From a virus, in IMG/VR virus record IMGVR_UViG_3300036832_000142, positions 1-39,809 of that record: a stretch of DNA of 39,809 nucleotides. One strand, given 5' to 3'. The position numbers and the translations under genes are program-made. The first letter of the stretch is position 1. Each line of letters starts with the position of its first letter. Under the pieces are notes generated by a model. It was not told the origin of the DNA and made no database searches. It saw only the letters and a list, made by a program, of their open reading frames with translations. Positions 7,505-35,157 of this stretch are shown here, piece after piece.

Positions 7505-7677
7505 GACTGCGCCTGCTGCTCGTCGTCTTGCGCGAGCGGCTGCGAGCCGACAGCGGCGCGCTCGTGACGTCGACAGAGCCGCAGCTCGATCTCGACGTCG
7601 TCGATCTCGATCTCGATCCCGTACGGCAGCGCGTACTCGCCGCAGCCGCGAACTTGACAGAGCACCAGCGAACTCAT
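7501..7677 (-). CDS. Small zinc-binding protein, 58 aa
   Basis: A short gene bounded on both sides by 4-bp overlaps: ATG at 7677 on the previous stop and TGA on the next GTG. Translation gives CQVRGCGEYA early and LCRRHE in the middle, a Cx4C...CxxH site typical of short actinophage zinc proteins. The middle is acidic (IEIEIDDVEIEL) and the end glutamine-rich. Confidence 0.65.
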   Translation of the reverse strand: MSSLVLCQVRGCGEYALPYGIEIEIDDVEIELRLCRRHERAAVGSQPLAQDDEQQAQS

Positions 7678-7973
7678 CGGCTACCCTCCCTGTCTGCGGC
7701 GACGGCGGTGGTGGTGCGTTGGGGAGACTTCGCCTCTGCCACCGCCACGCCGCGTATCTCGGGGTTCGCACTCGCCCACGCCGCTTCGAGTTCCTCGGCG
7801 CGCGTGAGCCACTCAGCAGCAGCAGTCAGCTCTGCGTCGACGTCGATCTCTCCCTGATCGAGTGCGTCTGCCGCGATGCGCAAGTGCCGCGAGCACTCGC
7901 GACGAAACACGTCAGCCAGCTCGCCCGGCTGCACGTCGAGCACGCGACAGACGTCGGCTACCCCGATGGTCAT
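7674..7973 (-). CDS. Hypothetical protein with helix-turn-helix-like start, 99 aa
   Basis: ATG at 7973 preceded by GGGAGGA. The first residues (TIGVADVCRVLDVQPGELADVF) look like two short helices around a turn, which could be a helix-turn-helix; the rest is acidic and alanine-rich helix. It lies 10 bases after the Rpf-like gene. Not recognised. Confidence 0.55.
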   Translation of the reverse strand: MTIGVADVCRVLDVQPGELADVFRRECSRHLRIAADALDQGEIDVDAELTAAAEWLTRAEELEAAWASANPEIRGVAVAEAKSPQRTTTAVAADREGSR

Positions 7974-7983
7974 GCGTCCTCCC

Positions 7984-8472
7984 TCAGCGAAGCCCGCACA
8001 TGCGGGCGGTGTTCGGCCAGGGCGCGAACCCGCTGACCGCGTAGTACGAGATGCCCGCCGCGATCTGCTGCGACGGCGACGCGAGATCGGCCCGTGTCGC
8101 GAACTGCCCACCGAATCTCTGCCACTCGCGCGAGCCGAACTGCAGGCCACCCCAGTAGCCGTTGCCCGTGTTCGACGACCACGCGCCCTCGTACGAGTGG
8201 ATGCACTGGAACGCGTCGACGAGCCAGATGACCCGATCGAGTCGCTGCGCGAGCGCACGTCGAAGCGCGAGCACCTGTCGATGCTGAACGCGCCAGCGTT
8301 GCGCCCATCGCTCCGGTCCCGCACCGTCGAAGCGAATCTGCCCGTACCCGATCTTCCGTTCGTGCTCGTGTGACGCGCTCGTGAACACGACGAGCGCAGC
8401 GCGCGACGTCGTGACGATCACGAGAAGCCCCGCGTACAGCGCGATCGCGCAGACTGCGAGCCTCCGTCCCAT
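7984..8472 (-). CDS. Secreted Rpf-like transglycosylase
   Basis: 162 residues. An N-terminal hydrophobic segment (about 6-30) after MGRR is a signal peptide or membrane anchor. Residues 84-161 match the resuscitation-promoting-factor/transglycosylase-like fold: HSYEGAWSSNTGNGYWGGLQ, with Glu95 as the likely catalytic acid, followed by FGSREWQRFGG, ADLASPSQQIAAG and GFAPWPNTARMCGL. Rpf-type enzymes cleave peptidoglycan in high-GC Gram-positives. Glu is two residues later than in mycobacterial Rpf (CESGG), a form I associate with Thermoleophilia. It is the first gene of the early operon, not part of the lysis cassette, which suggests a role in lysogeny or early infection. ATG with GGGAGG upstream. 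Confidence 0.8.
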   Translation of the reverse strand: MGRRLAVCAIALYAGLLVIVTTSRAALVVFTSASHEHERKIGYGQIRFDGAGPERWAQRWRVQHRQVLALRRALAQRLDRVIWLVDAFQCIHSYEGAWSSNTGNGYWGGLQFGSREWQRFGGQFATRADLASPSQQIAAGISYYAVSGFAPWPNTARMCGLR

Positions 8473-8821
8473 GAGTGCCTCCCTGCTCGGGGTCAGGAAC
8501 GCAGAGGGCGGCGACGGGCACGTCCACGCCGAGTCCCGTCGCTGCCGAAGCTCCCGTCGACGAATGATGGGTCACCCAGTCGTCGACGTTCGGTCGGGCC
8601 GGACACCCTCTGCACGAGCTGCAGCGACAGCTCGTCTCGACGTTCGCTCGACGCGGGCACTGCGAGTCGACGCCCGCAGCTCGATCCCCGACGAGCAGCT
8701 CGCCAAGCCTGTATCGGTGCGCGATTCGCTCTTGCGCTAAATCAGCGGAGCGACTTCTCGCACATCCGTTTTTAGACAAGTTCGCTACTCTCATGTCTCC
8801 CCAACTGCACAAGGAGGCGAC
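8473..8821. other. Divergent intergenic region between early operon and integrase
   Basis: 349 bp without a supported gene. It must hold promoters for the leftward early operon and the rightward integrase. Bases 8740-8800 are clearly richer in A and T than the surroundings and contain the inverted repeat described as candidate attP. AAGGAGG at 8811-8817 is the integrase ribosome binding site. Confidence 0.6.
8748..8790. other. Candidate attP: imperfect inverted repeat upstream of integrase
   Basis: GAGCGACTT (8748-8756) and AAGTTCGCTACTC (8778-8790) are imperfect inverted arms about 21 bases apart, flanking CACATCCGTTTTTAGAC-like sequence. Large serine integrases recognise about 50-bp attP sites with imperfect dyad symmetry, usually right beside the integrase gene. 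The site could instead be a repressor operator over the integrase promoter. Confidence 0.35.
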
Positions 8822-10198
8822 ATGAGTACCAGCACGATCGGACAGCGCAGCTCGAAGCGAGCGAAGCGAGCCAAGCTCGACACGATCGACGTGATCGGCG
8901 TCGCACGTCAGAGCCGAGGCGACGACGGGTCGAAGAGCACCGAAGATCAGGGCGACGCGATGCGCATCACGTGCGAGCGCAACGGCTGGAATCTGCTCGA
9001 TGTGTACGTCGAGCAAGACGTCAGCGGCCAGCGCCCGCTGCGTCGACGTCCCGGTCTGTCGCGAGCTATCGAAGACGTCGAGAGCGGGCGCGCGCAGGTC
9101 GTGCTCGTCGCGTACTTCGACCGGCTCGCGCGATCGATCAAGACGCAGCTCGAAGTGCAAGAGCGACTCGAAGCCGTGCCCGGTGCGTCGCTGCAGGCGT
9201 GCGACGTGGGCGAGATCAGCAACGCGACCGCAGTCGGATGGCTGAGCGCGCAGCAGCTCGGGATGATGAGCGAGTTCTACGCACGACAGACGGGAGAGAA
9301 GACCGCCGTGAGCAAGCAGCGCAACATCAACGCGGGCGTACCGCCGTTCCCGCGCATCACACCCGCGTACGTCAAGCGCGAAGACGGCACGCTTGAGCAG
9401 CATCCCGTGAACGGCCCGCTCGTCAGCGAGGCGTGTCAGATGCGAGCGAAGGGCGCGTCGTACTCCGACGTGCAGCGCTTCCTCGACGAGCAGGGTCTGC
9501 GCCTGACGAAGCCGCAGATTCGCTCGATGTTCGCGTCGAAGCTGCTGATCGGTGAGATTCACTTCGGCACGTTCGAGCCGAATCTGCACGCGATCGACGA
9601 TCCCGTTACCGATCGCGCGACGTGGCGCAAGTGCCAGACGGTCAAGTCGACGCGCGGGCGCAAGCCCGTGGCCGATCATCTGCTCGCACGTCAGGGGCTG
9701 CTGCACTGCAAGACGTGCGGCGCGCGCATGTCGTCGAAGCCGAGCGGGTCGTACACGTACTACCGCTGCATGGCTGACTTCTGCAGCGCGCGTGCGCTCG
9801 TGTCGACGCAAGTCGCTGACGAGTTCGTGCGTGACGCGGCGATCAAGCTGAGCGCCGACTTCAAGGGGCGCGCGAGCGCCGCGAAGAACACCGAAGCTGC
9901 ACGCGTCGAGGCGAAGACCGCGCAAGCTCGACTGAACAGCGCGATCAAGAGTTTCGCCGCGCTCATGGACGAGCCTGCTGCACGCGAGACGCTCGACGAG
10001 CTGCAAGCGGAACGCGATGCGGCTGTCGCTCGTCACGAGCGGCTACTTGCTCGCTCGACGCGTGTCACGCTGACGAGTGCGGAGGCATGGAAGGTCGCGT
10101 CGCTCGCGCAGCGTCGCGCTCTCGTCCACGCCGTGATCGAGAGCGTCGTCGTCGCGCCGGGGAGAGGGGTCGGTCGCATTGAGATCATCGCGCGCTAA
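8822..10198 (+). CDS. int: Large serine recombinase (phage integrase)
   Basis: 458 residues. The resolvase domain (about 21-165) starts DVIGVARQSRGDD with nucleophile Ser31 and includes STEDQ and YFDRLARS (98-105) with the conserved arginines. A recombinase domain follows (about 170-285, GVPPFPRITPAYV to GEIHFG...TWRK), then a zinc ribbon Cys296/Cys299 with Cys316/Cys321, a coiled coil (about 340-420, EAARVEAKTAQARLN) and a short C-terminal segment. This architecture is that of unidirectional large serine integrases, which join attP and attB without host factors and need a directionality factor for excision. ATG with AAGGAGG. It is one of only two clear genes of the lysogeny region and runs opposite to the flanking operons. 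Confidence 0.95.
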   Translation: MSTSTIGQRSSKRAKRAKLDTIDVIGVARQSRGDDGSKSTEDQGDAMRITCERNGWNLLDVYVEQDVSGQRPLRRRPGLSRAIEDVESGRAQVVLVAYFDRLARSIKTQLEVQERLEAVPGASLQACDVGEISNATAVGWLSAQQLGMMSEFYARQTGEKTAVSKQRNINAGVPPFPRITPAYVKREDGTLEQHPVNGPLVSEACQMRAKGASYSDVQRFLDEQGLRLTKPQIRSMFASKLLIGEIHFGTFEPNLHAIDDPVTDRATWRKCQTVKSTRGRKPVADHLLARQGLLHCKTCGARMSSKPSGSYTYYRCMADFCSARALVSTQVADEFVRDAAIKLSADFKGRASAAKNTEAARVEAKTAQARLNSAIKSFAALMDEPAARETLDELQAERDAAVARHERLLARSTRVTLTSAEAWKVASLAQRRALVHAVIESVVVAPGRGVGRIEIIAR

Positions 10199-15265: not shown

Positions 15266-15586
15266 CTATGCCTCCGTTCGCACTTGCACGCTCGTCTGTA
15301 CGTGCGCGATCAGCACGTCGAGCGCGTCGGGGTACTGAGCGAGCACGACACCTGCGCGCTCTTCCCAGTTCTCGATCGTGTCGCGTATCGCGTCGAGGTC
15401 GGGCGCTGGCATCGAGAAGGTCGGGTCGTCGAGGCCGAACGTCGGCAGCTCGACGCGAAACCCGAGCGGGCAGGCGAGGATCGCGTACACGCAGTCGGTG
15501 ATCTCGTCGAGTGAGTCCTGCTCGTTCGTCGCGGCGTACGGCGACGCGAAGCGGAACGGCAGCGAGAAGTGCGGGACGTCGCTCAT
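15266..15586 (-). CDS. Baseplate protein W (T4 gp25-like)
   Basis: 106 residues; ATG at 15586 overlaps the fibre-gene stop (ATGA). HFSLPFRF start, EQDSLDEITDCVYAILACPLG and FRVELPTFGLDDPTF are the family signature (poise-and-EPR region of gp25), and the end shows IENWEERAGVV with the conserved glutamate and arginine, then the terminal strand. gp25/W proteins nucleate the sheath on the baseplate, which is strong evidence for contractility. Confidence 0.88.
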   Translation of the reverse strand: MSDVPHFSLPFRFASPYAATNEQDSLDEITDCVYAILACPLGFRVELPTFGLDDPTFSMPAPDLDAIRDTIENWEERAGVVLAQYPDALDVLIAHVQTSVQVRTEA

Positions 15587-16851
15587 GTCACCCAGATCGG
15601 TACGACGGCAAGGAAGGCACTCTGGAACGACCAGCCCGACAGATTGCCGTGATAGCGCAGCGTGCAGACGTCGCCTGCCGCGCACTGGCGGTTGTAGATC
15701 GTGCGCGAGCACGACGCGTACATGCCCGTCGACTGCGAGACGGCGAGACTGTCAGCGTCGCTCGGCGCGATGCTCGCGCTATTGATCGCGACGTTCGTCG
15801 TGCCGCCCTGCATCCAGCCGCCGAACGTCAAGTCGTAACGGCCAGTGCGCGGGATCGTGATCGTCGGGCTATTCGTCAGCGCCGTCCATGTTGCGCCGAC
15901 GTTCGCAAGCGCGCTCGCTGTCGGGTTCTCGTTCGCGAGCGGTGTCGAGCCAATGCAGAGCCACTTCGCAGCGCTCGCGCTCCACTGCATGAGCCACGAG
16001 TACGTCGGCGCGCTCGTCGAGTCGACGAGGATCGCCTGCTGCCCGTCTGACGGCGATGCGGGCAGAGTCGTCGCGACGACGGGCGCGGTGATCGGCGGCG
16101 CGCTCGTCGACGCGATCGTGCCGAGTGCGCCCCAGAGCGTGACGCGCGAGCCAGCGACGAAGTTGCTGCCCAGCCCCGGCGTGATCGTGATGCGGTTGAT
16201 CGCCGCTGAGTTGCGCCAGTGCCCGCTGAACGTACGCGCGCGCTGATTACCGCTCGCTGTCCCGATCTTCGACGCAGTGATACCGAGCAGCGTCTTGTTG
16301 TTGAGCGTCCCCGCATAGTTCGGGATCGTGAAGTCGCTCTCCGCGAACAGCCCAGCCGGGTTGCCGTTCGTCGACTCAAGCGGCGCGCCGAGCGCCGCGT
16401 TCGCGTAACTCTCGCCTGCGCCTGCGGCACTGCCCTGCGCCTCGCCGTACTGGAAGTCGTAGCTCGCGCTCGCGTCGGCGTTGAAGCGCATCGAGGCGGC
16501 GGTCAGACCTGCGCCCGTGCTGTCGTCGCGCAGCGACGCGTGCAGCACGAGCGCGGCGTACGTCTGCGGGATGCTCTGAATGTCGAAGCTCGCCGCTGGC
16601 GACGCGAGCACGATGTCTGCGATCGGCGTCAGTGCGCCGATCCCCGCCGGTCCCGCCGGGCCGGTCGCACCAGCAGGTCCCGCCGGGCCGGTCGCGCCTG
16701 CTGCGCCGGGTGCGCCGTTCGCGCCCGCTGCACCAGCAGGGCCGGTCAGACCAGGCGGGCCTGCAATCACGAGATCGGCCCAGCCTGTCGACGTCTTGAC
16801 GCGAATCGCGCGCGGCGCGTCGATCGTCACGAGCTGCTCGACGTCGCTCAT
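15583..16851 (-). CDS. Tail fibre with short collagen-like stalk
   Basis: 422 residues; ATG overlaps the stop of the preceding collagen-like gene. Residues 1-30 ([20 protein letters not shown]) may attach to the virion; 31-70 are Gly-X-Y triplets rich in Ala and Pro; then a beta-rich part with [18 protein letters not shown], a second jelly-roll-like repeat region and a C-terminal domain ending in the hydrophobic [10 protein letters not shown]. Collagen-like phage stalks trimerise. The C-terminal part probably binds receptor or is shielded until assembly; no enzyme motif is seen. Confidence 0.75.
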
Positions 16852-17654
16852 GGTCCGCTCACGTTCCCCGAGAGCGACGAGTACGGCACCGGAGCGACTG
16901 CGCCGACCGCGACGGGTGGTGCATCGCTTGTGATCCAGATCGAGCCGACAGCGACGCCGATCGGCTCTGCGCTCTGCTCGTACACGCCGAGCACGCCGGG
17001 TGCGCCTTGAGGTCCGGCCGGGCCGGTCGCACCCGCTGGGCCTGTCGCGCCCGCTGGACCCGCTGAGCCGGTCGCTCCCGTCGCGCCCGTGTCACCCTTG
17101 ACACCTTGTGCCCCCTGCGGGCCGGTCGCGCCAGGCGGTCCCTGAGCGCCCGTAGCACCCGCCGTGCCGGGGATGCCCTGATCGCCCTTCGGTCCGGCCG
17201 GGCCGGTCGCACCGGCTGCGCCAGTCGCGCCGACGTCGCCCTTCGGCCCTTGCGCGCCGGTCGCACCGGGCGGGCCGGTCGAGCCGGTCGCACCCTGCGG
17301 GCCGGGTGGCCCTGTCGAGCCGGTCGCGCCTGGTGGACCGGCCGGGCCGGTCGGTCCCTCGGGACCCGGCGGGCCGACAGTGCCGCCGCCAGCGTCGACG
17401 GGCGCGAGCGTCATCACCCACGGCGTCTGCTGCTCGTCGAAGACGACGAGGCAGTCGTCGCCCGCTGTCGGGATCGCCGTCGACGGCACCCACGGGCACG
17501 GTCCCCACTGCTGACGCGAGCCGTCGAACGCGGCGACGACGACGTACAGATCGTCGCTCGTGTCGGCGGGCGTGTTCGCGATCGTCGCGCGTACAGCCGC
17601 GACGGGCGTCGGCTTGTCAACTGCCTCGAAGAGTTCGGAGAGTTCGATCGTCAT
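16848..17654 (-). CDS. Baseplate spike-like protein with collagen-like stalk
   Basis: 268 residues. Residues 1-88 ([20 protein letters not shown], then [19 protein letters not shown]) look like the OB-fold found in spike proteins and short tail proteins that plug onto the hub. Residues about 94-223 are roughly 43 uninterrupted Gly-X-Y triplets, with several GPKGD/GVKGD units typical of bacterial collagens. The last 45 residues ([20 protein letters not shown]) form a small beta cap. It follows the hub gene with a 4-base overlap. It could be the central spike or a fibre adaptor. Confidence 0.7.
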
Positions 17655-22116: not shown

Positions 22117-22847
22117 TCAGAGTCTCGCTTTCACCATCGCGTTGGCGATGTGCGTCGCTTGATTGCGTTGCATCTGATCGACGAGCGTCACCGTCTTGCC
22201 TGCGATCGCCTGCAGCACGACACGCTCTTCGTGTGAGTCGGTGGTGAGGTAGCGCTCGACGGGAAGCCCGAGTACGGCGAGCCACGCGGCGACCGCGACT
22301 GCGTCGCCGCGCGCTATTCCCCCAGGAAGTCCTGGTCGATCTCGCCGTTCGCGCTGCCCGCCCATTCGAGCCACTCGCCTGCGGCGTTCGTGATCGCGAC
22401 GGGTGCCGAGTTCGCAGAGCCGAACAGCGTCATCACGACGTCGCGTGCGCTCGACACCGGGCCGAGGCCGAGCTTGTCAGCGAGACGCTCGTCGAGGCCG
22501 AGCGGGTCGCCGTCGTCGTCGACGAGCAACTGGAACGGCTCGCTCGTGCGTGCTCGCCCGAGCACTTCGCGGAACGCCGCGACGAGGAAGTCGAGCTGCG
22601 CGTTCGCGTTGCGCCGTTGCGCTCGCTCGATGATCCGCTGCTGCTGCTGCGCCGTGATCGAGCCGAGACGCAGTCGCAGCTTGCCGTGCCAGCCGGGTAC
22701 GTCGAGGTCGAACGTCTGCGGCTCTGCAGCTCGTGCTCGTTCGGCCTTGAGCGCGTCGAGCACCGTCGAGCTGGCGGCGGGCGTCGCGACGCTGAACTCG
22801 TCGTCGTCCGTGCTGAACGGGACCGGCTGCGTGGTCGGCTCGCTCAT
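22117..22847 (-). CDS. Tail assembly chaperone, long form made by -1 frameshift
   Basis: The short chaperone frame can continue after a -1 slip on GGGGGAA (22317-22323) into the frame that stops at 22117, giving about 243 residues: 176 from the first frame plus 67 starting GIARGDAVAVAAWLAVLGLP. The added part has its own ATG at 22374 but that would give an unnatural Arg-rich start. The G/GT (lambda) and E/E' (P2) arrangement just before the tape measure gene is conserved across tailed phages. The long form coats the tape measure during tail assembly. Confidence 0.75.
22314..22847 (-). CDS. Tail assembly chaperone, short form
   Basis: 177 residues; ATG at 22847 overlaps the tube-gene stop. 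The product is acidic at first, then LDVPGWHGKLRLRLGSITAQ (beta/helix switch) and helices with FLVAAFREVLG. It ends in QDFLGE right after the slippery GGGGGAA. The frame is open further upstream, through the tube gene, but that part is an Arg/Asp shadow. Position between tube and tape measure defines the role. Confidence 0.82.
   Translation of the reverse strand: MSEPTTQPVPFSTDDDEFSVATPAASSTVLDALKAERARAAEPQTFDLDVPGWHGKLRLRLGSITAQQQQRIIERAQRRNANAQLDFLVAAFREVLGRARTSEPFQLLVDDDGDPLGLDERLADKLGLGPVSSARDVVMTLFGSANSAPVAITNAAGEWLEWAGSANGEIDQDFLGE
22317..22323 (-). other. Candidate -1 programmed frameshift site
   Basis: GGGGGAA on the minus strand, in frame as CTG GGG GAA TAG. A -1 slip on the G-run gives GGA ATA and opens the downstream frame to 22117. 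The site sits one codon before the stop of the first frame, as expected. Confidence 0.7.
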
Positions 22848-23254
22848 GCCGACACGTGACCGGACGGCGTCATTTCGAGTTCGATCAGCGCGGCGTCGCC
22901 TGACGTCGAGTCGACTTCTGGCGGCGTCACACGCTTGAGCACGCCCGACGTGACGATCGGCTTCCCGTACGTGTTGCCGTCCGTGTCGAGCGGCTGCTTC
23001 TTGACGACCATGCTGCCCTTGCCGACGCGACTGAGCAGCCACGCGATCGTCTGATGATCGCGTTCGAGCCGATACAGACGCGCGATGATGACCTGCCCCA
23101 CGGTGACGGTGCCGCCGAGCGTGACGATCGGTGCCATCCCTCCGGGCTTGTACGTCAGCGAGTCCGAGTCTGACTCGCCTCCGGTCATCGAGTCGAATGT
23201 GCCGAGCAGCACACCGTCGATCGTGACCGTGGTGTCGAACTGATCCTTGCGCAC
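22844..23254 (-). CDS. Tail tube protein
   Basis: 136 residues from GTG at 23254, 21 bases after the sheath gene. A beta-rich protein with TTVTIDGVLLGTFDSMTGGE at the start, GGTVTVGQVIIARLYRLERD, and a strand ALIELEMTPSGHV at the end, as in contractile tail tubes (XkdM/T4 gp19 group), which form hexameric rings inside the sheath. Position sheath-tube-chaperone-tape measure supports the call. Confidence 0.88.
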   Translation of the reverse strand: MRKDQFDTTVTIDGVLLGTFDSMTGGESDSDSLTYKPGGMAPIVTLGGTVTVGQVIIARLYRLERDHQTIAWLLSRVGKGSMVVKKQPLDTDGNTYGKPIVTSGVLKRVTPPEVDSTSGDAALIELEMTPSGHVSA

Positions 23255-23275
23255 TTGCGTCTTGCCTCCCTTCGA

Positions 23276-24487
23276 TTACGCCGCGACCGGCAGCGACTGA
23301 TCGGTTGCGACCTTGACGATCTCGATCACGACCCACTCGGCCATGCCGGACATGCGCACGCTCAAGATCGCGTGCAGCTCACCGTTGGCGATCGTCGCCT
23401 CGGTGTTGACCTGCACGCCGACGTTGACGTCGTACGCGTCGGCGGGTGCCGTGCCGTACAGAGCGCCGAGGTCGTAGTACGGGCCGAGCATCGCGGCGAG
23501 ATCGCCGCCGAACGATGCGATCGTGCGACGTCTGCCGTCGAGCTGACTGAACACGTAGTGCTCACCGATCGCCTCGGCCTGCGCGACGATCTCCATGTTC
23601 AGCCGCGCCCAGCCGAAGTTCTCCCACGTCGTGTCGACCGACGTGTCGACGATCGTGCGGTAGCCGTACGTGCGCACGCCGCCGTAGACGATGCGTGCCA
23701 TGTTGACGCCGTCGTCATTGAGCGACGCGTAATCGGCGTCTGAATAAGCGCCGAGCAGCGACAGCGCGAACACGCTCTGACCGAGATCACCGGCTGCGGG
23801 CTGATTCGCCGTGTACGCGAGATCATTGCGCGCGATGATGCCCGCCTCGATCGCCGTGTACGGCACCGTGCGCGTCGTGCCCGGTGTGACTCCCGGCACT
23901 TCCGCTGACGGCATGAAGACCGCGCCGTAGCGCGCGTTGACGTCGGTCTGCAGAGCCGTGGCCGCTGTCGACAGCGCCGTCGCGTCGCCGTCTGCGAGCG
24001 ACAGCAGCGCGACACGGTTGCACGCGGCGGCGTGTGCGAGTAGCGCCGACTGATTCGCCGGGTCTGCTGCGAGCACCGGGTCAGCGATCAGAATCTGCCC
24101 CGGTCCGAGCTGCTTGATCAGTGCAGCGAGCGCGGTCGCGATGCCCGTGTCGAGCGCGAGCGGCGCTGCGGACGCCTTGCTCTTCGACGTGCTCGCGCTG
24201 TCGCTCGCGTCTGCCGCTGCCGCGAGCGTGCCGACCGCCGTCGTCGAGCCGATGTAGCACTGCGATCCGCCCTCGCGGAAGTAGACGTCGGCGGCGTCGT
24301 ACGTCGTCTGCTCCGTCCCAGTGCCGCGAGCGCCGAACGTGTCGACGAACTCGGTCAGCGAATGAACGAGCGCGTACGGCGTGTCGGTGTTGCTCGTCGC
24401 GCCGACGATGAAGCAGACGCCCGTGTCGGTTGGTGCTGAGCGCGGCGGCGGCAGCGCGCGCGAGATCACATCTACTCCCGGCCTCAT
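23276..24487 (-). CDS. Contractile tail sheath protein
   Basis: 403 residues; ATG overlaps the stop of the preceding gene. MRPGVDVISRALPPPRSAPT, then TGVCFIVGATSNTDTP and EFVDTFGARG is the standard sheath start; the C-terminal half has AGIIARNDLAYTANQPAAGD, YRTIVDTSVDTTWENFGWAR, LNMEIVAQAEAIGEHYVFSQ and the terminal strand VVIEIVKVATDQS that exchanges between subunits. About 400 residues is compact for the family. It is the best single proof of a myovirus morphology. Confidence 0.93.
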   Translation of the reverse strand: MRPGVDVISRALPPPRSAPTDTGVCFIVGATSNTDTPYALVHSLTEFVDTFGARGTGTEQTTYDAADVYFREGGSQCYIGSTTAVGTLAAAADASDSASTSKSKASAAPLALDTGIATALAALIKQLGPGQILIADPVLAADPANQSALLAHAAACNRVALLSLADGDATALSTAATALQTDVNARYGAVFMPSAEVPGVTPGTTRTVPYTAIEAGIIARNDLAYTANQPAAGDLGQSVFALSLLGAYSDADYASLNDDGVNMARIVYGGVRTYGYRTIVDTSVDTTWENFGWARLNMEIVAQAEAIGEHYVFSQLDGRRRTIASFGGDLAAMLGPYYDLGALYGTAPADAYDVNVGVQVNTEATIANGELHAILSVRMSGMAEWVVIEIVKVATDQSLPVAA

Positions 24488-27566: not shown

Positions 27567-28148
27567 CTAGTCGCGCCCCGACGCTTCGCGGATCAGTCGA
27601 TTCATGTCGACACCGCCTGAGCGTCCCGCTGCGGCACCGCCGCGCCCCACGCCGATGCTGCCCTCGGACGAGTTGCCTCGCTCTTCGAGGTAGCGCTGCG
27701 CATCGGAGCGCAGTGAGCGCGCGTCAGTGCCCTGCAGCCGATGAGCTGCTTCGGGCGGGATGCCAAGCTCCTGAGCGATCGAGCGCTTGAGTTCAAGCAG
27801 CTCGCGTCGCGCGACGTCTTGCTCAAGCTCGATACGCAGCGAGCGCTCGCGCTCAAGTTCGGCACCCTGTCGATCGAGTCGTGCGATCGCACGCTCGACC
27901 TCGCTCTTGCCTTCGTCCTCGATCGCAGAGAGTCGGCGCTCTAGATCGGCAGCACGCTTCTCGGCATCGCGCCGAGCTTCGCGCTCCTTCGCCAGCGTCG
28001 CCCGTCCGCGATCGCGGAGTGCGGTGTCGTCTTGCCGATCGTCAGACGTCGCGTCTGCGTCGGTCGTGTGCCCGTCAGACGTCGCGTCGTCAGGGGTCGG
28101 AGCGTCAGCGGGCGTCGCGCTCGCGTCGCTCGATGTCGGGTCAGGCAC
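27567..28148 (-). CDS. Capsid scaffolding protein
   Basis: 193 residues with a disordered, acidic Asp/Thr-rich first third (ATPADAPTPDDATSDGHTTD), a long charged coiled coil at about 50-125 (REARRDAEKRAADLERRLSA) and a short C-terminal region ending REASGRD. This is the layout of Gram-positive phage scaffolds between portal and capsid genes. It overlaps the portal stop by 8 bases. Confidence 0.82.
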   Translation of the reverse strand: MPDPTSSDASATPADAPTPDDATSDGHTTDADATSDDRQDDTALRDRGRATLAKEREARRDAEKRAADLERRLSAIEDEGKSEVERAIARLDRQGAELERERSLRIELEQDVARRELLELKRSIAQELGIPPEAAHRLQGTDARSLRSDAQRYLEERGNSSEGSIGVGRGGAAAGRSGGVDMNRLIREASGRD

Positions 28149-29574
28149 CTACGCCTCCCTCGGTCGGAGTTGTCGTCGTCGGAATCTGAGCTGCAACTTG
28201 CGCGGGCGTCGGCGTGATCGTCTCGCGCGCAGTGACCGCCGGGCCTTGCGTGTCCGCGCCCTCTGCGATCCAGCGCTCGATCTGCTGCGGCGTCGAGCCG
28301 ACGTACTCCCAGAGCGCCGGACGCGGCACGCCGATCGTCGAGAGCTTGATCGCTGCGTCGACGACTTCGGCGGTCGAGCGCGACTCCGGGTTCGCCCAGA
28401 TCGTCTCGCAGTCGAATGACGTCGCGCGATCGGTTTCGCCCATGATCTGAAACGCCAGGCGGATCGCTTCCTCCCAGCCCTCACCGAACGCGATCTGCTT
28501 GCGTCGCACCTTCGCGACGAGTCCCGTCTCGGTCGCTTTGAGCGACTCGCCGCTCGGGAAGTTGCCCGACGAGCCGAGCAGATAGTGCGGCGGCGTGCGC
28601 GTCTGCGCGGCGACGTGCTGAATGAACAGCTCGATCGCCTTCACGTAGATGCCGAGATCGCTGACCGAGAAGTTGCCGAAGTGCGCCTGCGGCTCTTCGA
28701 CCGCCATCACGCGATCGGCACCGCCGAGGAACGAGACGATCGACGGCAGCGGCTGACCCGCGTTCGGGTGCCCGTCCGGGTAGACGGGAATCTCGACGCC
28801 GGTCACCCAGCGCTGCGGGAAGGCGGCGTACTCGCTCGCGATCATCATGTCGGCGCAGAGCTTGTTCACCGCGTCCTGCAGCGGGATCACGCGCTCGACG
28901 TCCGATCGACCCTGTCGTTCGCGCAGTGTCGGCCCGTTCGCGAGCGGGATCAGCGGCACGACGCCGAGCACGTTGCGCCCGCTCGACGCTTCGTCGAGCA
29001 CCCAGCCCTTGTCGACGCCTGCGCGATCCCACCACGCGATCACGTCGGGCAGATAGAGCACGCAGTGCTCGACACCCCACTCGTCGACCCAGTCGCGCAG
29101 ACCGGCGAGTCGATGACGACCGAGCGCCGGGTCGATCGCGACGACCGCGTTCGTCGGCGGCTCGATCTGAATCGTCGGCTCGCCGCCGTCGTCGGGACCG
29201 ACGAGCGCGTACGCAGTGCCGAGCTTGATCGCCTCGGTGTGCGCGAGTTCGCTCTCTGCGTCGAGTTCGTTGCGCTGCCATATCTCCCACGCGTCTTGAT
29301 CGGCCTCGTCGGTGCCGAAGCGGAAGCCCTCGATCTTGAGTCGCTCGGCGCTCGCGTCGACGACGAGGTCGCACCAGTTGTCAGCGAAGCTCGCGAACAG
29401 CATCCCGAACGTCTCGCGGAACTTCGCGGTCGCGAACAGCAGTTTGTGGTCGCCTTGGTAGTACGAGTCGAAGCGCTGCAGATTGGTCTGTCGCGCTGCG
29501 AGCGCGGCGAGCAGCTTGTCGCGCCACTGCTCGGGCAGTGTCTGCGGCGCTGTCGAGGTCATGGTCATGCTCAT
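28141..29574 (-). CDS. Portal protein (SPP1 Gp6-like)
   Basis: 477 residues. Signature stretches: RFDSYYQGDHKLLFATAKFR, MLFASFADNWCDLVVDASAE, RLKIEGFRFG, then ESELAHTEAIKLGTAYALVG, and a stem/clip region NFSVSDLGIYVKAIELFIQH with PPHYLLGSSGNFPSGESLKA, characteristic of SPP1-type portals in actinophages. The dodecamer forms the DNA channel at the head vertex. Encoded directly after the large terminase. Confidence 0.93.
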   Translation of the reverse strand: MSMTMTSTAPQTLPEQWRDKLLAALAARQTNLQRFDSYYQGDHKLLFATAKFRETFGMLFASFADNWCDLVVDASAERLKIEGFRFGTDEADQDAWEIWQRNELDAESELAHTEAIKLGTAYALVGPDDGGEPTIQIEPPTNAVVAIDPALGRHRLAGLRDWVDEWGVEHCVLYLPDVIAWWDRAGVDKGWVLDEASSGRNVLGVVPLIPLANGPTLRERQGRSDVERVIPLQDAVNKLCADMMIASEYAAFPQRWVTGVEIPVYPDGHPNAGQPLPSIVSFLGGADRVMAVEEPQAHFGNFSVSDLGIYVKAIELFIQHVAAQTRTPPHYLLGSSGNFPSGESLKATETGLVAKVRRKQIAFGEGWEEAIRLAFQIMGETDRATSFDCETIWANPESRSTAEVVDAAIKLSTIGVPRPALWEYVGSTPQQIERWIAEGADTQGPAVTARETITPTPAQVAAQIPTTTTPTEGGVGA

Positions 29575-29575
29575 C

Positions 29576-31009
29576 TCAGAAGCTCACCGGAACCCTTGAT
29601 CGAGGACGCCAACCGGACGAGACGACGTCGCTGCGTGCTTCGTGTGCGAGCACTGCCGCGATCGCCGCGTCGATGTGATCGTTCGCCGTTGCCTTTTCGA
29701 GCCAGTAGCCGCCGCGCACTTCGCGAATCTGAGCGGCGAGCACATGCGCTGCGAGCTGCTCGTCGTCTGCGTGCGGCACGACGCCCTGCGCGACGTCGGT
29801 GCGGAAGCGTTCGAGCGCGCCCATGAAGCGTGAGCGGTTGGTCGGGTAGCGGATCACGACCTCACTGCCGAACTCACGCGCCCACGTGTCGATCTCGGTC
29901 TGCCAGAGCGGTGGGTCGCAGTACGCACGCACGACGCGATAGTTCTCGAACGCGCTCGCAAGTCGCGCGTCGACTTCGCCAGCGGGCACTTCCCACTCAC
30001 GCACGCCGCGCGGCGCTTCCCAGACGCCGATCGTCTGCAGCAGACCGTCGTCGAGTCTGCACGCGACGAGCGCGGTCGCGTCGCCGTAGCGTGAGCCGTC
30101 GAAGCCGAGCGTGATCGTGTCGCCGTACGCGAGACGCTCGCGACGCAGCGACGCCTCCCAGTCTTCAGGTCGCACCCACCACGACTCTGCGCCGGTCCAG
30201 ATGCCGCAGCGGAAGCGATCCCACTGCCACGGCAACATCGACGGCGACTTGAGCGCGAGCGCGAGCGCCTCGATCGTCCACCACGGCGCGGGGTTCGCCT
30301 GCTTGACGAGCACGAGATTCTGCGTGTCGTCGTCGCGCTCAAGCGCCCACTCGTGCATCGCGAACGAGCCGTCAGTCGTGCGCACGTACAGGTGCTTGCC
30401 GTCGCGCTCGACGCCTGGCAGCTTGCGCGCCGCCGCACGCATCTGCCCGAGCACCGACCGCTCGTGATCGCCAGCGGTCGAGATCGTGATCATCTGCCCG
30501 TGTCGCGGTCCGAGGCCGTCGCGGAAGATGCCGTACAGCCCTGCCGACTTGTGACGGTGCAGCTCGTCGACGAGCGCGAGCGTCGGGATGATCCCGTCCG
30601 CCGTGTCGACGTCAGCGGCGAGCACGCGTATCCGTCCCGCCTCGCCGCGCTTGCGTATCTGTCGGTAGCCGCGTTTCGCGACGACACGCTGCTGCAGATA
30701 CGACGAGCGTGAGACGAAGCCCGCCGCCTGCTCGTACAGGATCGACGCTTGATCGCGTGACGCTGCGCCGAGCACGCACTCAGCATCGGGCGTGACGATC
30801 AGGTGGTACAGCGCGAGCGCCGCGAGCAGCGTCGTCTTGCCGTTCTTCTTCGGCAGCAGCACGAGCGTCTCGACGACGCCGTCGAAGTAGTCGCTCAGCA
30901 GCGTGCGCTGATACGACTCGACGACGAGCGGCTCGCCGCGTTCGAGCGGCAGTCCGGCGCAGAAGCGCTCGAACGTGCCCAGCTCGCCCGACGCGTGCGC
31001 GTCGAGCAC
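29576..31009 (-). CDS. Terminase large subunit
   Basis: 477 residues; GTG at 31009, next to the TAA of the small subunit. ATPase domain: ETLVLLPKKNGKTTLLAALA with Walker A at 53-60, AASRDQASILYEQAAGFV, and Walker B TLALVDELHRH (about 144-152). C-terminal nuclease: LGFDGSRYGDATALVACRLD, VVRAYCDPPLWQTEIDTWAR and NDHIDAAIAAVLAHEA, giving the expected acidic residues. It pumps DNA into the head and cuts it. Similar to terminases of phages that have an HNH protein nearby, suggesting cohesive-end packaging. Confidence 0.93.
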   Translation of the reverse strand: MLDAHASGELGTFERFCAGLPLERGEPLVVESYQRTLLSDYFDGVVETLVLLPKKNGKTTLLAALALYHLIVTPDAECVLGAASRDQASILYEQAAGFVSRSSYLQQRVVAKRGYRQIRKRGEAGRIRVLAADVDTADGIIPTLALVDELHRHKSAGLYGIFRDGLGPRHGQMITISTAGDHERSVLGQMRAAARKLPGVERDGKHLYVRTTDGSFAMHEWALERDDDTQNLVLVKQANPAPWWTIEALALALKSPSMLPWQWDRFRCGIWTGAESWWVRPEDWEASLRRERLAYGDTITLGFDGSRYGDATALVACRLDDGLLQTIGVWEAPRGVREWEVPAGEVDARLASAFENYRVVRAYCDPPLWQTEIDTWAREFGSEVVIRYPTNRSRFMGALERFRTDVAQGVVPHADDEQLAAHVLAAQIREVRGGYWLEKATANDHIDAAIAAVLAHEARSDVVSSGWRPRSRVPVSF

Positions 31010-31537
31010 TTACGCGCCGCGCCGCCGCCGCAGCTCTGCGAGCTGATCGACTTCGGAGAACGGATCGTCGGGATCGGCGGCGCGCTCGATCGGCTCTGCG
31101 TCTTCGGGCGCGTCGCGCAGACGCACCGACACGCGTCCCCAGCGATCGGGGTACATGCGCTCAAGCAGCCACGCAGCGGCTTGCCAGTTCTCACGCGCAG
31201 CGCTCGCGATGTGCGCGACGTTGCGCGACTCGCCTTGCGCCTTCGCCAGCTCGACGCGCTCACGAAAGTCGGCGTACTCGACGTCGGCGTCAAGCCCGGA
31301 CGTGCCGCGTTCGAGCCACTCGTGGAACTGCTGACGCGACACGCCAGCCGCGCGCACTGCGACCGTGATGTAGTTGCCCGCGCTGAGCAGTTGCACGATC
31401 AGATCGGCTGTCGCGGGCGTGAACTTCGACGCGTGCCCGATCTTCGCGCCCAAGTGGAACGAGCACTTGTCGCCGCCCGTGACGGCCAGTGCTTCGCACG
31501 GCTGTCCGTCGACGCGTGTCGCAACGCATGTCGCCAT
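31010..31537 (-). CDS. Terminase small subunit
   Basis: 175 residues from ATG at 31537 that overlaps the stop of the ABC/GNAT gene; an open frame continues 34 codons further upstream but is arginine-rich shadow. A short Cys/His start (CVATRVDGQPCEALAVTGGD with CSFH) could bind zinc, then a helix-turn-helix: FTPATADLIVQLLSAGNYIT, VAVRAAGVSRQQFHEWLERG. Late part AARENWQAAAWLLERMYPDR W is a common terminase-small-subunit motif. It recognises the packaging site. Confidence 0.85.
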   Translation of the reverse strand: MATCVATRVDGQPCEALAVTGGDKCSFHLGAKIGHASKFTPATADLIVQLLSAGNYITVAVRAAGVSRQQFHEWLERGTSGLDADVEYADFRERVELAKAQGESRNVAHIASAARENWQAAAWLLERMYPDRWGRVSVRLRDAPEDAEPIERAADPDDPFSEVDQLAELRRRRGA

Positions 31538-32664
31538 CAGGCGGCGATCTCCTTGATCTCTGAGTCGAGCCAGTCGGCGGTCGCAGCAGCAGGGCCGACG
31601 TACTCGAAGACGGCATTGGGGCGACGACCGAAGCGCCACGTCGGGGTACTCGACGTCGAGCCGGTGAAGCGCCCGAGCGCGCCACGCGGTGCTTGCGTCA
31701 TCGCGTACATCGCGGAGCGGTCGTAGCCGTGAATCAGCGCGGGGTGCGCGGGGTACGTGTGGAAGCGATAGCCGTTGTGCTTGTACGCCGCGCCGAGCGC
31801 GTCGCTGAGCACGAACGCGAGGCCGAGTCCTTGCCAGTCGGGGAGCGTGACGAGACGCGACAGCCCCTTCACGTTCGAGACGCGCGCGTGCGGTCGATGC
31901 AGCACACCCGCGAACGCTGCAGGCTCGTCACCGACGAAGAGCACGAAGCAGCGCGCCGCTCGATGCAGCGACGCGGTCAGATAGTGGAACGGAGCGAAGA
32001 GCTGCCACGCGGAGTAAGGAACGCGCTCGATCGTGTACGCGAGTTCAGGTCGCGGTCGAAGAGACTCCCATCTGAACGTCATCGTCGCCGGTTCGAGCAC
32101 CCAGTCGGGGCGCAGCCACTCGACGATGTCGTAGTGGCATGAGACGGCGACGAACTGACGATCGTTGCGGCGCACCCACTTCTGCACGGCGTGCGCGCCG
32201 ATCTTCGCGACTTGACGATCGACGACGCTCGTGAACTCGTCGACGTACAGCGGCTGATCGGCGGGCGACTCGATCATGCGACGAGCAAGCTCGACGCGGA
32301 AGCGCTCGCCGGTCGAGAGCACGTCGTGCGGGCGCAGCCAGGCGGGAATCGTGTTGAAGCCAACCGCTTGGCAGGCGGCGGCGATCTGCTCCATCGAGAG
32401 ATCGGCGTCGAAGTCGTCGATCACTGACAAGCTCGCCCAGAGCGGCACGCGCTCGTCTCCGAAGAGCTGACGCGCTGTCGTCGTCTTGCCGGACCCGGAC
32501 GGGCCGACGATCAGACCGACGTGCCAGTCGCGCTCGTCGAGCGGCACTGCGCCGTGCCACTCGCGCTCGTCGACGTCACGCTCGGGCACGTCGAACATCG
32601 CAGAGAGCTGGCGTGCGCGCATCGAGTTCGACACGGGCGTCGAGACACGGACGTCGACGTTCAT
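31537..32664 (-). CDS. ABC-type ATPase fused to GNAT (acyltransferase) domain
   Basis: 375 residues; ATG overlaps the ParB-like stop. Residues 45-195 are a complete ABC ATPase: LIVGPSGSGKTT (Walker A 54-61), LSTGERFRVELARRM (signature 116-120), PLYVDEFTSVVD (Walker B to about 143) and VAVSCHYD with His177. There are no membrane spans, so it is soluble. Residues 205-375 look like GNAT: FAPFHYLTASLH, VGDEPAAFAGVLHRP, SRLVTLPDWQGLGLAFVLSD AL with the QGLGLA acyl-CoA-binding loop at 278-283. Phage Mu Mom, which modifies adenines, also has a GNAT-like fold, and its genome neighbours here are ParB-like and terminase genes. A DNA-modification role is inference; other acyl-transfer roles remain possible. 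Confidence 0.72.
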   Translation of the reverse strand: MNVDVRVSTPVSNSMRARQLSAMFDVPERDVDEREWHGAVPLDERDWHVGLIVGPSGSGKTTTARQLFGDERVPLWASLSVIDDFDADLSMEQIAAACQAVGFNTIPAWLRPHDVLSTGERFRVELARRMIESPADQPLYVDEFTSVVDRQVAKIGAHAVQKWVRRNDRQFVAVSCHYDIVEWLRPDWVLEPATMTFRWESLRPRPELAYTIERVPYSAWQLFAPFHYLTASLHRAARCFVLFVGDEPAAFAGVLHRPHARVSNVKGLSRLVTLPDWQGLGLAFVLSDALGAAYKHNGYRFHTYPAHPALIHGYDRSAMYAMTQAPRGALGRFTGSTSSTPTWRFGRRPNAVFEYVGPAAATADWLDSEIKEIAA

Positions 32665-33257
32665 GCCATCAGCAGCTTCACGGTCAGTCCTTCCGCTTCG
32701 AGTCGCGCGGCGAGTTCGCTCTGCGCGCGCTCGCTGTCGCAGTCGATCAGGATCGAGTACGTCATCGCCGGGAGCTGCGCGCTGACGTCGCGATCGAGCG
32801 TGTCGAGCAGACGCTGCAGCTCGTTCGCGCCGAAGCCGGTCAGGTCGAGATTGACGTCGTCGGCGTCGAGCTGCGCGAGCAGCGACTGCAGCGACGACGG
32901 CTCCCACTCGCCATAGCTCTGATTGTCGCGCAGCATCCAGAGGCGGGCACGCTCGGGATCGAGATCGACGACGACGGTCGGGATCGTCTGCCAGCCGAGA
33001 TCGACGGCTGCGCGGAAGCGCATGTTGCCCGCGACGATCGTGCCGTTCGGGAGCGCGACGATCGGGCGCGCGTGCAGCATCTGCGGGTCAGCGTCGAGCG
33101 ATCGCTTGAGCTGCTCGAAGCGAGCTGGGGCGATGCGTCTCGGGTTGTCGCCCGACTCGTGGAGCTGCTCGATCGCGAGCTGCTGCACGGGCACGTCTGG
33201 GACGCTCTGGGAAGCCCCCTCCCGTCTCCGAAGCTGCAGCGCTGACACTTGCGTCAC
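32661..33257 (-). CDS. ParB-like (ParB/sulfiredoxin fold) protein
   Basis: 198 residues from GTG at 33257, which has AGGAAGGG just upstream; the frame could start at GTG 33332, but that crosses a hairpin and an A-run. ParB-N features: VPDVPVQQLAIEQL, GDNPRRIAPARFEQLKRSL (38-41 NPRR), PIVALPNGTIVAGNMRFRAA with the GNMRFRA motif (77-83), and LDPERARLWMLRDNQSYGEW. The C-terminal 60 residues may form a ferredoxin-like fold (YSILIDCDSERAQSELAARL). Phage ParB-like proteins with a nucleotide-hydrolysing or nuclease reputation often precede methyltransferases or terminases; here the partner is the ABC/GNAT gene. Confidence 0.8.
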   Translation of the reverse strand: MTQVSALQLRRREGASQSVPDVPVQQLAIEQLHESGDNPRRIAPARFEQLKRSLDADPQMLHARPIVALPNGTIVAGNMRFRAAVDLGWQTIPTVVVDLDPERARLWMLRDNQSYGEWEPSSLQSLLAQLDADDVNLDLTGFGANELQRLLDTLDRDVSAQLPAMTYSILIDCDSERAQSELAARLEAEGLTVKLLMA

Positions 33258-33483
33258 GGACCCTTCCTGACGTGGGAGGCGCGCTCCCGTTTTGGCAGAT
33301 TTTTTTCGCAGATAGGTGGGGGTGTCCCGCACGGGTTGCCGTTACAGGTGCTACCCCACCCCTCCACCGTGTTGCCCACACCGACATCGACGCGACTGTC
33401 GATGCGTCGCACACGAGCGAGCGCGCCGTCGAGGGGGGAGGCGGCGACAGCGCGCTCGCTGCTGACGCCCTCGTGTGCGTGCG
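33258..33483. other. Intergenic region with hairpin and T-tract, candidate cos/packaging site
   Basis: About 226 bp between the HNH gene and the ParB-like gene without a supported start. It contains the hairpin GGGAG-GCGCG-CTCCC followed by GTTTT (33274-33293), an 8-T tract (33299-33306), and opposing G- and C-runs (GTGGGGGTG at 33317-33325; CCCCACCCCTCC at 33353-33364) that could form a second stem. Gaps of this kind next to HNH and terminase genes often hold cos. The exact site is not identifiable by eye. Confidence 0.4.
33274..33293 (+). terminator. GC hairpin with T-run
   Basis: GGGAG, GCGCG, CTCCC and then GTTTT on the plus strand; a 5-bp stem. It is related to the dispersed GC hairpins. 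The only genes around it run on the minus strand, so in the plus direction it would be an antisense stop; the hairpin also forms in the minus-strand transcript. Confidence 0.4.
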
Positions 33484-33780
33484 TCACGAGGGCTTGACCT
33501 CGTTCGCTGGGCGCTCGACGCCCTGACACGAAGCGCAGAGCGCGAGCACTTCGTCAGCGCTGACGATCTCGTGACCGCCGAGCACGAGCGGGCGAACGTG
33601 GTGGGCGGTGAGTGGCGCTCGACTCCCACAACGTTCGCACCTGCCTCGTGCTCGTGCGATCACCTGTCGTGCAACTCTGCGCCATGCCTTCGGGCTGCGT
33701 CTGCGATGCAGCTCGCAGCGCCCCTCTCGCGTTGCGAACTCACGACAGCCCCACACGGCGCAGAGCGTGTGCGCTCTCAT
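33484..33780 (-). CDS. HNH endonuclease-like protein
   Basis: 98 residues from ATG at 33780 (GTG at 33795 is an alternative). It has an N-terminal CAVWGCREFATREGRCELHR zinc knuckle, a basic helix and the HNH core GRCERCGSRAPLTAHHVRPL, VLGGHEIVSADEVLALCASC. The HH pair and zinc cysteines are in place, but the Asn position is Asp and the last His of the motif is Gln (LCASCQ rather than LCxxCH). HNH proteins next to terminases assist cos cleavage in many phages. With the missing His, activity is uncertain. Confidence 0.75.
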   Translation of the reverse strand: MRAHTLCAVWGCREFATREGRCELHRRRSPKAWRRVARQVIARARGRCERCGSRAPLTAHHVRPLVLGGHEIVSADEVLALCASCQGVERPANEVKPS

Positions 33781-33836
33781 CGCCTCATCGCCCACGCCAG
33801 TGTGACCAGCGCGAGCACGAACAGAAGCGCGAGCAC
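33777..33836 (-). CDS. Possible 19-residue membrane peptide
   Basis: A GTG-start frame of 19 codons (VLALLFVLALVTLAWAMRR) lies between the two neighbouring genes and overlaps the HNH start ATGA-style. It is one hydrophobic helix with a basic end. No ribosome binding site is clear, so it may be noise. Confidence 0.25.
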   Translation of the reverse strand: MLALLFVLALVTLAWAMRR

Positions 33837-33846
33837 GTCGTCGCTA

Positions 33847-33942
33847 CTAGCCCCAGCCGTTGAAGTAGGCGAGCACGACGAAGACGGCGATCACGATGAT
33901 CGCGATGTACGCCGCGAGCTGGGCTGCACGGTCGAACGTCAT
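33847..33942 (-). CDS. Tiny membrane protein, 31 aa
   Basis: ATG at 33942 overlaps the stop of the HPI-repeat gene (ATGA). The product is MTFDRAAQLAAY followed by one transmembrane helix (IAIIVIAVFVVLAYF) and NGWG. A short membrane peptide at the front of the late operon; function unknown. Confidence 0.5.
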   Translation of the reverse strand: MTFDRAAQLAAYIAIIVIAVFVVLAYFNGWG

Positions 33943-34796
33943 CAGTGGTGCTCGACGTGCGGGCCGTCTGACGCGGGCGGGTACGTCGTGGCGTCCTCGG
34001 GCACCCATGCCCACGTGAACAGCGAGCCGACTGCAGTCACGTACCAGTCACCGGGCTGAGCGTCTTCGCTCGGCGTCGTGCCGACGATCGGCTGCGCGGG
34101 CGCGGTCGGGTTCGTGACGAAGCCCCACATCAGCGTGCCGCCGACGCCGAGCCACGCCCAGAAGCCCTGCGTGAGATCGGGCAGCTCGGGGTGATCGCTG
34201 ACGCTGTCGAGGTCGAACGTCGGCAGCGAGTTCGGCGGCAAGACGATCGGGTGCTCGGGCACTTCGACGATCGGGTGCGACGGGTGCGGCGGTGACGGCT
34301 GTCCGCCCTCGGGCGGGTTCGGCCACACGATCGGCGGGATCGGATGCTCGACGTGCGGCGGTGGTCCGCCTGGTGCGATCGGGTGCGCCGGGTGACCGGG
34401 ATCGGGCCAGATCGATGGCGGGAGATAGATCGGGTGCTCGGGGTGCGCGTCGCCGTCTGTCGGCGGCTCGGGCATCACGATCGGGTGCTCGGGCTTGAGA
34501 TCGGGCCGATAGATCGGGTGCGCCGGGTAGCCCGGCTCGCCGGGCGTCTCGCCCGTGTCGGGCGGCACGATCGGCTCGTCGTGGAACGAGAACGTGCCCT
34601 GCTCGCCCGTGTTGCGATAGACCGACCAGTTCGCGAACACATCGCCCTGCCCGGCCTCGCGTGCCTCGTGATTCGTGTACCCGCCGAGCTGATGATCGCC
34701 TGCGTCGCGTCCGGCGACGTAGTCGCTGACCCAGCAGACGTGATCGCCGTACCGATCGTGATAGACGGCTTGCCGTCCAACATCTTCTGCTGCCAT
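33942..34796 (-). CDS. HPI-repeat, proline-rich protein of unknown role
   Basis: 284 residues. Residues 1-70 look folded (YHDRYGDHVCWVSDYVAG, FANWSVYRNTGEQGTFSF). Residues 75-190 are low complexity: proline, histidine and glutamate with seven HPI units (at about 93, 104, 121, 138, 151, 174 and 182), mostly as PxHPIV/Y with irregular spacing of 8-23. Residues 207-284 are a second folded part (GFWAWLGVGGTLMWGFVTNP, GDWYVTAVGSLFTWAWVPED) with aromatic-rich beta character. The His/Pro spacer could bind metal or form a rigid extended rod between two domains. I recognise no family with a defined function. Confidence 0.65.
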   Translation of the reverse strand: MAAEDVGRQAVYHDRYGDHVCWVSDYVAGRDAGDHQLGGYTNHEAREAGQGDVFANWSVYRNTGEQGTFSFHDEPIVPPDTGETPGEPGYPAHPIYRPDLKPEHPIVMPEPPTDGDAHPEHPIYLPPSIWPDPGHPAHPIAPGGPPPHVEHPIPPIVWPNPPEGGQPSPPHPSHPIVEVPEHPIVLPPNSLPTFDLDSVSDHPELPDLTQGFWAWLGVGGTLMWGFVTNPTAPAQPIVGTTPSEDAQPGDWYVTAVGSLFTWAWVPEDATTYPPASDGPHVEHH

Positions 34797-34807
34797 GCTT
34801 CGCCTCC

Positions 34808-34912
34808 CTACTCGTTGGGGTCGTCGTCGGTGTCGTCGTCGGTGTCGTCGTCGTCGGTCGTCGTGTCGTCGTCGTCCTCGACGGGCTGCGGCTCGCTCTG
34901 CGTCTCGCTCAC
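34808..34912 (-). CDS. Small acidic Asp/Thr-repeat protein
   Basis: 34 residues from GTG overlapping the stop of the basic protein gene (GTGA). It is VSETQSEPQPVE followed by a nearly pure Asp/Thr run (DDDDTTTDDDDTDDDTDDD). It is fully coupled to the basic gene. A DNA-mimic or charge partner to the preceding Lys-rich protein is one thought; it might also be only a degenerate reading frame. Confidence 0.45.
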   Translation of the reverse strand: MSETQSEPQPVEDDDDTTTDDDDTDDDTDDDPNE

Positions 34913-35157
34913 TTGCGTCTCCCCTTCGGCTTGAGTGGCCCGCGCTTGTGAACGATCGCGTTCACCTTCGCGGGGGTCCCGCTGGTCGACTTGCGTGCCA
35001 CGTACGACTTCGCCGCGCGATGCGTGGCGAGCCGCGTCTTCTCGCTGATCCCGGCCTTGCGTGCCTGAGCTTTCGTCGGCACCGGGTACTTGCGCGTGCT
35101 CGGGTAGACGAACGCGCTCGGCGGCAGCTTGCGTCGCTGCGCGGCGGTTAGAGCCAT
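34909..35157 (-). CDS. Basic Lys/Arg-rich phage protein, 82 aa
   Basis: First gene of the late operon. MALTAAQRRKLPPSAFVYPS, then TRKYPVPTKAQARKAGISEK is a pattern seen repeatedly in small phage proteins of high-GC hosts, though with no known function. The C-terminus is strongly basic (KVNAIVHKRGPLKPKGRRK). It could bind DNA or the capsid interior. Confidence 0.7.
   Translation of the reverse strand: MALTAAQRRKLPPSAFVYPSTRKYPVPTKAQARKAGISEKTRLATHRAAKSYVARKSTSGTPAKVNAIVHKRGPLKPKGRRK

Follow-up and report, generated by a model that had tools for sequence, protein, structure and literature searches.

A ParB-like protein paired with an ABC-ATPase/GNAT fusion: a predicted DNA-modification module in a contractile-tailed phage

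What might a ParB-like protein and an ABC ATPase fused to an acetyltransferase-like domain be doing directly in front of the terminase genes of a phage? The question was raised by a roughly 40 kb contig of a contractile-tailed phage (IMG/VR record IMGVR_UViG_3300036832_000142), and the whole stretch of 39,809 nucleotides is hereafter called the window. A first-pass annotation had proposed that the two genes form a Mom-like DNA-modification module, which acts on DNA at, or just before, packaging. Open reading frames, domain matches and PHROG matches confirmed that both genes are present at this site on the minus strand, where the gene order is HNH endonuclease, ParB-like protein, ABC/GNAT fusion, small terminase subunit (TerS), large terminase subunit (TerL) and portal (Table 1). 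Both junctions of the fusion gene had been described as ATGA overlaps. This was correct for the junction with the ParB-like gene, but the junction with TerS is a TGATG in which stop and start have one base in common. TerS and TerL abut (TAA, then GTG at 31009), and an alternative upstream start of the ParB-like gene is possible (GTG at 33332). Elsewhere, the window encodes a 284-residue protein with many repeated HPI/PEHPI motifs and no PHROG match (33942-34796), a 688-residue protein for which PHROG gave no match at 1e-3 (7970-10036), and two neighbouring proteins matching collagen-like tail-fibre families (15583-17654).

Table 1. Positions of the module, its neighbours and selected features of related loci
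Record	Feature	Position	Strand	Basis or remark
Window	HNH endonuclease	33484-33780	minus	phrog_144 3e-10; upstream of ParB-like gene, context (module membership putative)
Window	ParB/Srx-like protein, 198 aa	32661-33257	minus	GTG start; Pfam ParB_N 8.6e-7
Window	ParB stop/ABC/GNAT start overlap, ATGA	32661-32664	minus	sequence
Window	ABC-ATPase/GNAT fusion, 375 aa	31537-32664	minus	ATG start; ABC at about residues 1-200, GNAT at about 205-355
Window	ABC/GNAT stop/TerS start junction, TGATG	31535-31539	minus	sequence
Window	Terminase small subunit (TerS)	31010-31537	minus	ATG at 31537; phrog_4102 3e-28
Window	Terminase large subunit (TerL)	29576-31009	minus	TerL_ATPase 1.2e-16; phrog_9 2e-70
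Window	Portal	28141-29574	minus	next after TerL in gene order
L201	Mu-like locus with ABC/GNAT at mom end	22411-24140		
L202	Mu-like locus with ABC/GNAT at mom end	33426-35026		
L054	Formyltransferase-like gene	7123-7779		
L070	Formyltransferase-like gene	1826-2473		Gordonia phage NHagos gene 3
L201	Formyltransferase-like gene	23523-24140		
L080	ASCH-domain gene	7073-7537		

The fusion protein matched two Pfam families over their cut-offs, ABC_tran (2.2e-5) and Acetyltransf_1 (1.8e-5), as well as phrog_11143, a family of unknown function (2e-90); a control search with the latter gave matches in 14 of 14 control genomes, probably via the ABC domain. The ABC domain displayed a Walker A motif (GPSGSGKT, residues 54-61), a signature (LSTGE, 116-120), a Walker B and D-loop (YVDEFTSVVD, 140-149) and a switch histidine (H177). 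We aligned 29 full-length members, namely the window protein and 28 relatives, 25 of which were at most 43% identical to it. The ATPase residues G54, G57, G59, K60, S117, G119, D142, E143 and H177 were invariant throughout, as were the family-specific GNAT residues W220, F223, H227, Y228, L229, R270, P275, G279 and G281 and the intact acyl-CoA loop QGLGxG/A. With all motifs of the superfamily in place, the protein carries a complete ABC ATPase, as originally proposed.

AlphaFold2 modelled the whole protein with a pLDDT of 86.6, and the GNAT domain alone with 87.5. A sequence search of the PDB gave only weak ABC matches; the whole model, searched with Foldseek, hit both ABC cassettes and a GNAT among PDB structures, with the folds of MJ0796 and MalK at 4e-7. 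The isolated C-terminal domain (VIA) had its best match in 1y9k (Z 14.3 over about 130 residues), and many GNATs scored above 12. Together with the Acetyltransf_1 match, the models make us confident that the domain following the ABC ATPase adopts a GNAT fold, which agrees with the initial assignment. COG2401 is described as an "ABC ATPase fused to predicted acetyltransferase". A match of the protein to PADLOC mad3 (9e-9), with its best stretch at ABC residues 111-176, was rejected as generic ABC similarity.

Relatives of the fusion protein were found at 68 viral loci, in 58 phage records and in 349 genome stretches. With the best 80 of these 349 stretches taken into the counts, 154 loci were gathered, and 103 were non-redundant after removal of redundancy at 80% identity. 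ParB genes and neighbourhoods were assigned by purpose-built HMMs, and all locus counts are inflated by the relatedness of the loci. The ABC and GNAT domains were called as two pieces in 12 non-redundant loci, with the pieces still adjacent. Judged by sequence, the ABC/GNAT family is real and widespread, far beyond chance.

A ParB gene was located within 300 bp upstream of ABC/GNAT in 76 of the 95 non-redundant loci with enough upstream DNA. By source, these were 18 of 32 loci from IMG/VR, 53 of 58 from genomes (among the best 80 of 349 stretches) and 5 of 5 from annotated phages. The two genes overlapped in 47 of the 75 non-redundant loci having the pair, and about one fifth of the testable loci had no recognised ParB, notably a T4-like and jumbo-like group. 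The proposed ParB/sulfiredoxin-like identity of the smaller protein is supported by its ParB_N match, and this partner is conserved in most relatives. At loci L008-L011 and L015 the module had a pair of ParB-like genes in its vicinity and a lambda-type GpA terminase upstream.

The ParB-like protein of the window displayed homology to the N-terminus of phrog_498, annotated as "DNA methyltransferase" (8.7e-29), and its residues 25-155 matched PADLOC MTase_II (4e-17). Among the 60 phage matches listed, about 50 belong to genes whose annotation is DNA methyltransferase or methylase; the search for ParB relatives in viral contigs gave 7 loci only. By these matches, the window protein belongs to a clade of ParB domains otherwise mostly fused to phage DNA methyltransferases, so that the partner within this one clade is in some cases a methyltransferase and in others ABC/GNAT. 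A ParB_N domain beside a soluble ABC ATPase might also bring to mind a partition, DNA-segregation and repair device, in which ParB works with an SMC-like ATPase. We regard this as very improbable, since the ParB match is limited to the N-terminal domain and reaches 19.7 bits against the ParB/Spo0J model TIGR00180, whose cut-off is 58.45. Moreover, the AlphaFold2 model has no long coiled coil in the ABC domain, no ParA-type partner was found among the window proteins scanned (a subset of the ORFs), and such a device leaves the GNAT domain unexplained. The candidate identity of a chromosomal ParB/Spo0J partition protein was likewise rejected, as Pfam gave ParB_N only, without the central HTH.

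The neighbourhoods often placed the module among late phage genes. Of 79 loci, 62 had packaging or capsid genes no more than about 6 kb away. For the large terminase, a distance of 3 kb or less was seen in 29 of the 55 loci with complete flanks, and for TerS one of 200 bp or less in 28 of 93; the genome loci were in each case those from the best 80 of 349 stretches. Compared with a rough chance expectation of 16%, this proximity has a p of about 4e-10, for related loci that are not independent. By these neighbours, the bacterial copies are largely prophage genes.

A different arrangement was displayed by Mu-like phages. In six IMG/VR records, a Mu-type transposase and ABC/GNAT occupied opposite ends. 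In L027 the transposase matched PF02914 at 1.1e-52, and in L050, L055, L058, L060 and L061 the matches were to a Porphyromonas transposase at 1e-48 to 2e-6, the weakest being tentative. In Mu itself, mom is located at the genome end opposite the transposase. Two annotated phages, Pseudomonas phage Komp_PAO1_1 (transposase, transposition protein, Gam-like protein) and Porphyromonas phage011a (transposase, MuB-like and Gam-like proteins), shared the order of tail-fibre genes, ABC/GNAT and a formyltransferase-like gene. Mu-like phages usually have this last gene beside ABC/GNAT. The Mom family phrog_1384 was absent from the Mu-like ABC/GNAT records and was found in Mu as a positive control. The occupation of the mom position by ABC/GNAT, with Mom absent, favours acylation of phage DNA.

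The module is distant from the terminase in the Mu-like phages, so adjacency to the terminase is not a defining feature, and this argues against a special link to packaging. The association with the terminase expected from the window recurs in many relatives but fails in the Mu-like ones, and modification "at, or just before, packaging" is not upheld. The terminase adjacency in the window reflects the common late-operon site of the module, and a coupling to packaging is hypothetical. The frequent proximity of terminase genes could also suit a GNAT that acylates a protein, be it the terminase, the portal or a factor of the host (RNA polymerase, for instance), with the ABC domain delivering it, so that packaging or host takeover is tuned. 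The best structural matches of the GNAT domain were protein and small-molecule acetyltransferases, including the protein N-terminal acetyltransferases RimI and Naa50, and suit a protein substrate equally well as DNA. However, GNAT fold similarity is uninformative on the substrate, the position of the module varies, with the Mu-like phages having it at the far end from the terminase, and both the clade of the ParB and the ASCH genes nearby speak for DNA; hence, we consider protein acylation unlikely.

ASCH genes occurred within 2 kb of ABC/GNAT in 11 of 79 loci (genome loci from the best 80 of 349 stretches), with the ASCH identity given by Pfam in one locus (5.7e-7). In actinobacterial and other prophages such genes turn up repeatedly next to ABC/GNAT, in many cases on the opposite strand. 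N6/N4 methyltransferases were over the cut-off in 1 of 20 ABC/GNAT records; this count, from these records alone, fits a replacement of methyltransferases and carries little weight. The links to ASCH and to methyltransferases are partial, and this counts against the DNA-modification reading. The presence of the module in many prophages might instead indicate a moron directed against the host or rival phages. The GNAT would then be a toxin, or the pair a system of superinfection exclusion in which ParB serves as the nuclease; toxins of the GNAT type are known, and ParB domains are able to nick DNA (PMC5512222). Nevertheless, we found no antitoxin-like partner, the ABC and GNAT genes remain adjacent even when split, and the module often has late structural genes around it, in keeping with a late role on phage DNA. 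A moron is, in our judgement, distinctly unlikely.

Some relatives displayed a third gene. A formyltransferase-like gene came immediately behind GNAT at 11 of the 93 testable loci (genome loci from the best 80 of 349 stretches) and in 18 of 58 phage records, where it is annotated as "PurN", "tRNA-methyltransferase" or "hypothetical"; none was found in the window. The encoded protein has about 215 residues and matches Formyl_trans_N (PF00551, 5.8e-16) and phrog_9240 (1.6e-43). Known formyltransferases have a catalytic Asn two residues before the histidine of the HPSLLP motif, and all 19 of the 19 sequences aligned here have G, A or I at this position. The nearest solved relative is the N-terminal domain of 10-formyl-THF dehydrogenase (2e-11), which has the same I-Y-HPSLLPRHRG pattern. 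That domain passes a formyl group to the thiol of phosphopantetheine. The missing Asn suggests that the label of auxiliary metabolic gene may be wrong for this gene. The survey also suggests that some "PurN auxiliary metabolic genes" and "tRNA-methyltransferase" genes of phages are part of a DNA-modification operon.

Based on these findings, we postulate that the ParB-like protein and the ABC/GNAT fusion make up a module that modifies phage DNA by acylation and protects it from host nucleases, a reading that we hold to be moderately probable. The ParB-like protein and a dimerising ABC ATPase would hold and scan DNA, ATP binding and hydrolysis would gate access to a base, and the GNAT domain would transfer the acyl moiety of a CoA thioester onto an exocyclic amine, much as Mom, from a separate lineage, does. 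The analysis establishes that the ATPase and acyl-CoA-loop motifs are intact, that ABC is constantly paired with GNAT and that ParB is linked to them; DNA as substrate, ATP gating and the anti-restriction benefit are what we infer. A ParB clade of the methyltransferase type, the ASCH genes that recur nearby and the placement at the mom end in Mu-like phages point the same way, and they favour the DNA-modification role that had been predicted for the pair. An independent published prediction for the same architecture in phage pT24 adds to these reasons. More speculatively, ParB and ABC/GNAT, with the formyltransferase-like protein in some phages, may perform ATP-gated acylation of nucleobases in place of Mom and of ParB-methyltransferases. 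The formyltransferase-like protein may then make formyl-CoA for the GNAT, yielding formylated DNA bases, and members without it, such as that of the window, would use host acyl-CoA. This extended scheme is tentative, and we are inclined to doubt it.

The core idea, that GNAT-ABC proteins acylate DNA bases, is already published as a prediction, and the first-pass annotation had re-derived it. The survey of jumbo phages by Iyer et al. (2021; PMC7824862) describes a GNAT member coupled with an ABC ATPase, with phage pT24 as an example, and refers to a 2013 paper of Iyer et al. in which, as cited there, GNAT-ABC was predicted to give a DNA base an uncharacterised acyl modification. In the literature searched, no acyl-modified nucleobase was reported for any GNAT-ABC member. 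Our survey adds how widely ParB is linked to the module, which clade this ParB belongs to and the mom position, as well as a conserved third gene in some relatives as an apparent addition; these may overlap with the 2013 work. If the prediction is right, phages of Actinobacteria, Firmicutes, Bacteroidetes, Planctomycetes and Proteobacteria would have in common an uncharacterised DNA base and an ATP-dependent route to it. With the survey, a prediction made a decade ago comes down to a few cultured phages with directly testable DNA, among them Gordonia phage NHagos with ParB, ABC/GNAT and formyltransferase-like genes, Leptospira phage LE3 with ParB and ABC/GNAT, and Pseudomonas phage Komp_PAO1_1 with ABC/GNAT and a formyltransferase-like gene.

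Among known systems, the closest is the GNAT-ABC system of Tenacibaculum phage pT24, which has a single homologous place (33% identity, 2e-50 to the window protein) and the same ABC and GNAT architecture, so that the window pair appears to be a new member of the predicted GNAT-ABC DNA-acylation family. In pT24, a jumbo phage, the gene is annotated in two pieces, whereas the window has an overlapping ParB gene and lies beside the terminase. Phage ParB-DNA methyltransferase fusions (phrog_498, and the nicking ParB-methylase described from Bacillus cereus, PMC5512222) share the ParB clade, but their enzyme is a methyltransferase and that of the window a predicted ABC/GNAT acyltransferase. DpdB, a ParB-like ATPase that helps DpdA to insert a modified base, 7-deazaguanine, likewise joins a ParB-like ATPase to a base-modifying enzyme (PMC12839542), with a chemistry that is not that of the window pair; the two are likened by description only. 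Mu Mom is similar in having a GNAT fold and being encoded by a late phage gene, and the ABC/GNAT family occupies the mom position in several Mu-like phages. In Mu, however, Mom has neither an ABC domain nor a ParB partner. The label "Mom-like" holds for the GNAT fold and not for the sequence family, as BLASTP gave no alignment above noise between the window protein and Mu Mom, and phrog_1384 was not among the PHROG matches of the window protein to E 0.1 (Mu Mom itself, 8e-84). A Mom in BFVD ranked 25 for the GNAT model (E 2.4e-4, TMq 0.56), a match that other GNATs equalled. By these sequence comparisons the window protein falls outside the Mom family; if the prediction holds, it would nonetheless act like Mom.
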